From Paracoccaceae bacterium (GTDB lineage Bacteria; Pseudomonadota; Alphaproteobacteria; Rhodobacterales; Rhodobacteraceae): a stretch of 64,000 nucleotides of DNA. Shown here piece by piece: positions 24,670 to 50,219 of the stretch. The DNA is taken from positions 144,925 to 208,924 of the forward strand of contig JALHOL010000009.1 in the NCBI GenBank assembly GCA_022843025.1. The letters run 5' to 3'. Positions within the stretch are counted from its first letter, which is position 1. The number at the start of each line of letters is the position of its first letter. Made by a program: the position numbers and the translations under genes. The notes below the pieces were generated by a model. It was given only the letters and a program-made list of their open reading frames with translations. It was not told the DNA's origin and searched no databases.

Positions 24670-25329
24670 ATGGCAACCGGCGGGCATGACGGGCATCTGG
24701 GCGCGGTCTACGAGGCCCGCGCGCCCGAGGAAGTGGCCGCCGTTTATGACGCCTGGGCAAGCACTTACGATGAAGAGATGGCCAAGGCAGGGTACCGCCA
24801 TCCGGCGGTGGGACTTGCGCTGCTGGCGCGGCATTTGCCGCGGGGGGCGGGGCCTGTGCTGGATGCGGGCTGCGGGACGGGGTTGCTGGGGGATTGGCTG
24901 GGCATACTGGGCTTTGCGCCGGTTGAGGGGTTGGACCTGTCGCCCGGCATGTTAGAGGTGGCGCGGCGCAAGGGGAGCTATGCGCGGCTGCACAATGTGG
25001 CGCTGGGGCGGGAATTGCCCTTTGAAACCGGGCAGTTCGCGGGTGTCATCTCAACCGGGGTGTTCACCACGGGCCATGTCGGGGCCGAGGGGTTGCCGGA
25101 GCTGATCCGCATCACGCGGCCCGGCGGGGTGATCGTGCTGACGGTGAAGACGACGCTGTGGGATGGCGGTTTTGCCGCCGCTTTGGGTGTGCAGCAGCCG
25201 GTGCAGATGGCGGTGCAGACGGGCGTGCATACCGATGTGCATATCGTGGAGCAAACCGACCCCTATATCTCGATGCCCGGAGAGCCGGGAACGGTGCCTT
25301 CGCTCGCGGTGGTCCTGCGGCGGGTGTGA
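24670..25329 (+). CDS. Class I SAM-dependent methyltransferase with a V-Q/H-x-x repeat
   Basis: A 219-residue methyltransferase. Motif I is VLDAGCGTGLLG (Asp65 region), followed by VEGLDLSPGMLEVAR and a post-motif region ending ITRPGGVIVLTVK. ATG 24670 has a GGGGA ribosome site. Residues 174-193 are five tandem tetrapeptides (VQQP, VQMA, VQTG, VHTD, VHIV), encoded by a 12-base direct repeat that also occurs between genes at 49.9 kb. The insert lies between the catalytic fold and the conserved C-terminal SMPGEPGT. Methyl acceptor unknown; proximity to the betaine genes hints at amine or choline metabolism. Confidence 0.82.
   Translation: MATGGHDGHLGAVYEARAPEEVAAVYDAWASTYDEEMAKAGYRHPAVGLALLARHLPRGAGPVLDAGCGTGLLGDWLGILGFAPVEGLDLSPGMLEVARRKGSYARLHNVALGRELPFETGQFAGVISTGVFTTGHVGAEGLPELIRITRPGGVIVLTVKTTLWDGGFAAALGVQQPVQMAVQTGVHTDVHIVEQTDPYISMPGEPGTVPSLAVVLRRV
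25189..25248 (+). repeat. 12-bp tandem repeat array, copy A (inside the methyltransferase gene)
   Basis: Five consecutive 12-base units each start with GTGCA: at 25189, 25201, 25213, 25225 and 25237. Units two to four read GTGCAGATGGCG, GTGCAGACGGGC and GTGCATACCGAT. A decayed sixth unit (GAGCAAACCGAC) follows. The order of units matches copy B at 49909-49956, with 39 of 48 bases identical over four units by my count. Confidence 0.8.
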
Positions 25330-49908: not shown

Positions 49909-49956
49909 GTGCAACACGCGGTGCAGATGATGGTGCAGACGGCTGTGCATACAAAT
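49909..49956 (+). repeat. 12-bp tandem repeat array, copy B (intergenic)
   Basis: Four consecutive 12-base units each begin GTGCA, at 49909, 49921, 49933 and 49945 (GTGCAACACGCG, GTGCAGATGATG, GTGCAGACGGCT, GTGCATACAAAT). They match, unit by unit, the array inside the methyltransferase gene at 25189. This copy lies 39 bases after the DUF2948 stop, in a 442-base gene-free stretch before hisD. Confidence 0.78.
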
Positions 49957-50116
49957 TTCGGCAGGGTGATGGGGCCGGGCGTGGTTAACGGTGCGCCGCC
50001 GCACAGGTTTTGGCGGATGTGGGGGTGGTGACGTTGTTTGCCGCCATATCTTGGGTGTCCCTCGGATAAACCCAGTGGTTTTACAACGTAGGTCCAGATG
50101 CACGCCGAGAGGGCGA

Positions 50117-50219
50117 AATTTGACGCAAATTTCGCGACGATTTTTGCCGCAAAAATCGGTGGGATACCGGTGGACCCGAGATTGCCTGCCGCAGGCAGGC
50201 GCGGAATTTGCGTCAAATT
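50117..50219. repeat. Nested palindrome element upstream of hisD
   Basis: AATTTGACGCAAATT (50117-50131) and its exact reverse complement (50205-50219) enclose two further hairpins. One is a 21-base perfect palindrome with half CGATTTTTGC (50138-50158). The other is GCCTGCC-GCA-GGCAGGC (50184-50200). The outer stem extends inward to 19 bp with one G-T pair, so the whole can fold as a three-way junction. It is AT-rich in the arms, unlike its surroundings. It resembles an extragenic palindromic element; it ends 94 bases before the hisD start. Confidence 0.75.

Follow-up and report, generated by a model that had tools for sequence, protein, structure and literature searches.

Strand-polar arrays of four 12-bp units, about 45 kb apart, as putative orienting sites on the chromosome of a Rhodobacter-like clade

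The window, a stretch of 64,000 nucleotides from a Paracoccaceae bacterium (assembly GCA_022843025.1, contig JALHOL010000009.1, positions 144,925 to 208,924, forward strand), contains a gene for an S-adenosylmethionine (SAM)-dependent methyltransferase with an in-frame array of 12-bp repeats (array 1) and, between the DUF2948 gene and hisD, a second array of the same kind (array 2). A preliminary description of the window had reported five GTGCA-headed dodecamers in array 1 and four in array 2, with 39 of 48 bases shared across four units, and tetrapeptides of the form V-Q/H-x-x in the protein. Both arrays were present as claimed and the agreement was reproduced; the units of array 1, beginning at residue 174 (start codon at 24670), were translated as VQQP-VQMA-VQTG-VHTD-VHIV. 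Six matches to (GTGCAN7)2GTGCA, up to one mismatch being allowed, were found in the window, compared with a mean of 0.01 in shuffled sequences. Coordinates without a contig label are window positions, those in the style of C1:448390 refer to contigs of G000, the genome that contains the window (3.9 Mb in 22 contigs), and other genomes are designated by G numbers.

In the whole of G000, a three-unit pattern with at most one mismatch was matched 71 + 57 = 128 times and its reversed control 1 + 0 times, and 81 arrays were mapped by merging the pattern searches. A sequence model derived from an alignment of 42 arrays (A1, R1; hereafter model R1) gave 86 matches at E-values up to 0.01, some of which are missing from the list of 81 (for example C1:39316); array 1 was matched at 25188-25232 (42.7 bits, E 2.5e-12) and array 2 at 49909-49972 (35.0 bits, E 6.2e-10). 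The window arrays are members of a genome-wide family with a shared plan, in which three direct 12-bp units (TGTGCAG-type dodecamers, mostly GTGCAG plus six letters) stand in a recognisable order (for example GCGCGTG, GATGGCG, GACGGCT) and are followed by a terminal unit, which reads GTGCATAC in subtypes A and C and the reverse complement of this, GTATGCAC, in subtype B. When units were counted with a relaxed motif in 78 fetched G000 loci, 72 arrays had four units, three had three and three had five, and the step to the previous unit was 12 bp in all 78. A GTTAA box was found downstream in 54 of the 78 loci (background, 0.0075 per 50 nt). Its distance, counted from where the terminal unit starts, was 28, 33 or 39 nt in 45 of the 54 (the commonest subtype combinations), and in 13 of the 54 the box was doubled to GTTAAGGTTAA, with a 6-bp period. 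The possibility that units of types B and C encode similar peptides (V-x-T-Q-R, by eye) was rejected, the frame being broken by the spacing of subtype A and by the 33-nt spacing. The closest pair of arrays (C7:306384 and C7:306482, locus L097) was separated by 98 bp on the same strand. The coordinates of the window features are collected in the table.

Table. Features of the two arrays in the window
Feature	Position	Strand	Description or evidence
Array 1	25189..25248	+	In frame within the methyltransferase gene; four canonical units and a fifth
Array 1, canonical units	starts 25189, 25201, 25213; terminal GTGCATAC at 25225-25232	+	Sequence
Array 1, extra fifth unit GTGCATATCGTG	after the terminal unit; array end 25248	+	Sequence
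SAM-dependent methyltransferase gene (Methyltransf_11/25), carrier of array 1	24670..25329	+	Pfam, alignments
Array 2	49909..49956	+	Gap between DUF2948 gene and hisD; three direct units, then terminal GTGCATAC (49945-49952)
GTTAAC box of array 2	49984..49989	+	39 nt past the start of the terminal unit, the usual subtype A spacing

With the element itself masked, the array strand was the G-rich strand at 79 of the 81 loci (exceptions, C1:448390 and C2:508764), whereas the direction of the genes agreed with it in only 47 of 81 (p 0.18), and gene direction was rejected as the source of the polarity. The skew at fourfold sites was positive on the array strand in sense genes at 73 of 76 loci and in antisense genes at 68 of 73; because it is positive in antisense genes too, transcription does not account for the strand rule. 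Among the scorable loci of relatives the rule held at 52 of 53 (G298, 18/19; G297, 19/19; G295, 10/10; G299, G303 and G104 together, 5/5); G298 and G297 each had one further fetched locus that fell outside the search pattern. Since the strand follows GC skew whatever the gene direction, the arrays have a polarity, very probably relative to replication. The G-rich strand is described as the leading strand as a general rule (PMC8941118). When the arrays were mapped with hand-set offsets onto G305, a one-contig genome of the same species, a 1.5-Mb block carried 30 of its 32 arrays on the minus strand and two on the plus strand. The strand-mosaic part of this map ran from about 4.15 Mb, across the zero point, to 2.65 Mb, so that numerous small inversions lie on one side of the chromosome.

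The arrays were also evenly spaced. The 71 within-contig gaps had a mean of 45.7 kb and a coefficient of variation of 0.61, against 0.92 for uniform placement; none of 20,000 simulations was as even, and only two gaps were shorter than 10 kb where 14 were expected. The strand polarity, the even spacing and the four-unit format were properties beyond the reach of a first reading confined to the window.

When genes were called with our own codon-usage caller, 76 of the 81 arrays lay outside genes, four were within genes in the sense direction and one in the antisense direction. The two clear in-gene cases were the methyltransferase and the C-terminal tail of peptidyl-tRNA hydrolase (Pth) at C9:25786; the latter copy (locus L103) was translated in frame as VQRAVQRPVQMGVHTNVHT. 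Along the array, the neighbouring genes were convergent in 33 cases, tandem sense in 20, tandem antisense in 13 and divergent in 10. Convergent gaps accounted for 32 of 74 gaps with an array and 19 of 190 without (p 6e-9), and divergent gaps for 10 of 74 and 67 of 190, respectively, the array-free gaps of at least 60 bp being taken from the same fetched loci. Arrays thus favour convergent gene ends and avoid divergent promoter gaps.

Many arrays were located 5-80 nt past a stop codon on the same strand, a position that would suit an RNA element in 3′ untranslated regions. Such an element is very improbable here: in tandem gaps the 20 sense and 13 antisense cases showed no clear strand preference (p 0.30), six array regions that were folded as RNA did not exceed shuffled sequences in stability (z -1.47 to +1.45), and Rfam at the gathering threshold returned only a tRNA in the window. 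A cell-cycle regulatory site, in which the GTTAAC box would be a CtrA half-site and the GTGCA units would bind a partner, acting on nearby genes, was given somewhat more weight and is nevertheless improbable. The CtrA motif of Dinoroseobacter is reported as TTAAC-N5-GTTAAC (PMC7232146), and the GTTAA(C) half-site, the one feature that suggests a CtrA link, resembles it and stands at preferred distances in the 54 box-bearing loci. Against a CtrA site, the arrays avoid promoter gaps and favour convergent ends, their strand tracks GC skew and not genes, and the 6-bp period of the doubled box is not the full CtrA spacing.

The METHYLTRANSFERASE copy in the methyltransferase gene (array 1) was then compared across relatives, nine genomes of the genus having a clear orthologue (at least 80% identity). 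The repeat was in frame, with a varying number of units, in G000, G305, G302, G297 and G310, and the short form was found in G303, G298, G301 and G104, as well as in the distant homologues of G311 and G309; the array-free orthologues of the genus were 12 residues shorter at the array region. Among 27 homologues from named records (32 loci minus the five most distant), the repeat was present in three, probably of the same species as G302, G310 and G297, and absent from 24. On the evidence of the shared methyltransferase array, G297 is probably R. kunshanensis HX-7-19. Judged from these alignments, the copy is a clade-specific in-frame gain, and the existence of short-form orthologues indicates that the methyltransferase does not need the repeat. 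In G298 (almost certainly Rhodobacter ruber), an array was found just beyond the stop codon of the methyltransferase gene, on the same strand and about 155 bp from the G000 position, and no array was found within 1.5 kb of the gene in G303, G301 and G104. The chromosome seems to want a site at this locus, at least in these species. Insertion into proteins, as proposed in the preliminary description, was confirmed for this gene in a few close relatives; as a general habit it was not, sense in-gene cases being restricted to the four given above. A chance origin, or simple slippage of a coding repeat, with which the frame-keeping 12-bp units would agree, was refuted by the genome-wide count of matches against the reversed pattern and retains practically no probability: the same unit order recurs at unlinked loci, most homologues are without the insert and most arrays are outside called genes.

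Positions were compared for 55 array loci of six related genomes (G298, 20 of 34 matches; G297, 20 of 31; G295, 10 of 10; G299 and G303, 1 of 1 each; G104, three loci); these were a part of the matches to a strict pattern, a choice which favours conserved cores. A homologous locus was found for 48 of the 55 among the G000 array loci, the only loci compared. In 45 of the 55 the array was within 300 bp of the corresponding G000 point, always on the same strand, including the methyltransferase pair of G298 and G000; of the three remaining homologous loci, L217 had its array on the same strand at a distance of about 1.6 kb, and gaps in the alignment coincided with L186 and L219. At site L070, which was chosen by homology and not by pattern, arrays were kept in G305, G302, G310, G298 and G297 and, with drifted units (TGTGCCG, TGTACCG), in G303, G301 and G299, and inserted genes took the place of the array in G295; in G104 the array was still beside the left gene (model match C1:2610080) and the right gene had moved, and in seven genomes only the left gene was matched, short of the array.

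The identity of the single sites was kept as well. Terminal-unit identity was 1.000 between G298 and G000 orthologues and 0.744 for other pairs, and the downstream flanks of G298 orthologues had a likeness of 0.726 against 0.408; since terminal units and flanks keep the identity of the site, addresses and terminal types are inherited with it. Other features were altered genome by genome. The step to the previous unit was 13 bp in every one of the 19 arrays that could be scored in G297, 12 bp in G295 (10 arrays) and in the other genomes (7 arrays), and mixed in G298 (13 bp in nine, 12 bp in ten). All ten fetched arrays of G295 ended in GTACATAC, which was seen in none of the 81 arrays of G000. 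When the three spacers were compared, with registers corrected for the 13-bp step, likeness was 0.716 within G295 and 0.411 between orthologues (5 pairs), with 0.535 within G000. The units have thus in part changed together within a genome, and period and some letters have shifted per genome, clearly in G295 and G297 and weakly for the spacers otherwise.

The main rival explanation is a strand-biased mobile repeat, that is, a non-autonomous element that spread long ago or is still copied through single-stranded DNA at the fork and was kept mainly at harmless convergent ends, with the spacing due to target immunity and the similarity within a genome due to copying. This reading, which we regard as unlikely, agrees with the dispersal of a recognisable unit order, the in-frame gain in one gene, the bias to convergent gene ends, the unit similarity that is clear in G295, and a single sub-cut-off match to Y1_Tnp (E 7.8e-4) in the array-bearing G301. 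It is opposed by the four-unit format, by positions, strands and, mostly, terminal-unit types that are common to different species, and by the absence of terminal inverted repeats or target duplications recognisable by eye. Moreover, Y1_Tnp (PF01797, RAYT/IS200 family) was above the cut-off in none of 19 genomes of the genus, against 5 of 14 control genomes, and identity with elements served by REP-associated tyrosine transposases (RAYT) was rejected on that ground; a mobile repeat would then move by another mechanism. The preliminary description had proposed a dispersed repeat family able to insert in frame into proteins: the family, with its unit order, is there, but in-frame copies are rare and free mobility does not accord with the 45 loci that share site and strand with a G000 array.

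The distribution of the family was surveyed with model R1 in the same 19 genomes (150 candidates scored per genome) and was bimodal, 11 having 64-105 matches (G000, 86; G305, 84; G295, 71; G297, 77; G298, 69; G299, 105; G301, 100; G302, 64; G303, 97; G310, 81; G104, 84) and eight having 0-1 (one marginal match in G307, none in the seven others). Across 394 genomes of the family, with 12 candidates per genome and stricter filters, a survey that shows the absence of strong matches and not counts, strong matches were confined to the two members of the genus that had been drawn; 52 others had one to three weak matches (best E 9e-5) and 340 had none. Pattern surveys gave a three-unit match in 36 of 295 family genomes and a two-unit match, mostly single, in 58 of 394, the reversed control also matching many genomes once; both missed drifted units, which model R1 mended within the genus. 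In other genera, palindromic GTGCAC units with a 12-bp period, such as GTGCACAAATTGGTGCACAAACGCGTGCA, were observed in G047, G071, G106, G107, G128 and G152 and possibly represent an unrelated operator. Three-unit arrays of the GTGCAGCAAANT type were observed at L229 and L230 (G254) and L231 (G013), with the strand rule failing at two of the three, and are either distant relatives or chance.

A motif that is polar, even, stereotyped and conserved in address is best interpreted as the collected binding sites of a single direction-dependent protein. Under what we consider the best reading, held at slightly less than even confidence, the arrays would be polar composite sites, placed about every 45 kb and bound by one multimeric protein that would orient chromosome organisation or segregation by their direction; the protein-bound DNA site suggested in the preliminary description thus remains the best account, the binding being putative. 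A site usually comprises four 12-bp TGTGC units with a GTTAA box after them and lies on the G-rich strand; the putative protein would read the units with one subunit per repeat. The signal likely tells this protein the direction of DNA copying, and the direction may be used for segregation, by a translocase or by a replication-linked loader, and not for local gene control. Array 1 would be such a site that came to lie within a gene at a tolerated position. A wider proposal, more tentative and on balance doubtful, is that one Rhodobacter-like clade has an unrecognised addressing system of about 80-100 four-unit signposts per genome, in 45-kb steps and nearly all directed with the fork, with a dedicated putative reader whose shifting specificity would drag the units along, as in the change from a 12-bp to a 13-bp step in G297, while positions stay. 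No description of such arrays was found in the published titles and abstracts that were searched.

Several observations weigh against binding by one orienting protein. The leading strand was here equated with the G-rich strand from GC skew alone. On the G305 map, the 49 of the 81 arrays outside the 1.5-Mb block were a mosaic of 35 on the plus strand and 14 on the minus strand, with the skew flipping along with them. The null for spacing was uniform placement and took no account of genes, and the conserved positions could be plain inheritance of old insertions. Homogenisation of the spacers, clear only in G295, was modest in G297 (0.552 within, 0.511 between G297 and G000 orthologues, 18 pairs) and in G298 (0.475 within, 0.404 between orthologues, 17 pairs). 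Finally, any role is not universal, eight members of the genus and nearly all genomes of the family being without strong matches.

Several known systems share single properties with the arrays. The site sets of Noc, SlmA, MatP and ParB (NBS, SBS, matS and parS) are dispersed chromosome-organising binding sites, single palindromic or short, and to our knowledge are not ordered by replication strand; the arrays resemble them in dispersal and differ by their four direct units and box. Repetitive extragenic palindromic (REP) sequences and bacterial interspersed mosaic elements (BIME), with their RAYT transposases, occur as many intergenic copies near gene 3′ ends, as the arrays do, but are imperfect palindromes that form hairpins, whereas the arrays had neither a hairpin beyond shuffles (6 folds) nor an above-cut-off Y1_Tnp gene (0/19 genomes). 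Cyanobacterial short tandemly repeated repetitive (STRR) sequences and Rickettsia palindromic elements are short repeats in intergenic DNA or in frame in genes; they are not known to show strand polarity, even spacing or a constant number of four units. Like the Rickettsia elements, the arrays combine in-gene copies (methyltransferase, Pth tail) with intergenic ones (76/81), and unlike them they are built of direct units and are not palindromic. Plasmid iteron and centromere arrays (for example the 12-bp repeats of tubC) are short direct repeats with a period of about 12 bp bound by multimeric proteins, but are known as one locus per replicon, against 81 mapped loci in one genome. FtsK-orienting polar sequences (KOPS) are bound by the gamma domain of FtsK.

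Architecture imparting sequences (AIMS), which include KOPS, are described as chromosome-wide, strand-biased and common to related taxa, and as degenerate octamers defined by a rise towards the terminus, with 27 AIMS and 7119 copies in E. coli under a criterion of at least 96 copies (PMC5993296). From that description, AIMS and KOPS are nearest to the arrays in behaviour and unlike them in form (PMC5993296). The arrays share enrichment on the leading strand, as inferred from skew (79/81 on the G-rich strand, independent of genes), but are four-unit composite sites of about 50-70 bp, with 81-86 copies in G000 and 64-105 in relatives, and their gaps are, as far as seen, even rather than graded. 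Known polar chromosome signals are short octamers of which a functional copy is hard to tell from chance, whereas each array has a length that allows it to be identified individually, keeps its place across species and lends itself to deletion or inversion one at a time. Given a reader protein, the question of how bacteria know the direction of a chromosome arm could be put directly in this clade, as could that of how some 80 sites and a single protein alter their specificity in concert.

Separately from the arrays, a 20-nt inverted repeat, AATTTGACGCAAATTTCGCG, with arms 63 nt apart, was observed upstream of hisD (50117-50219); its core, GACGCAAATT, had nine copies in 532 kb of fetched loci and perhaps marks a second, palindromic repeat family.
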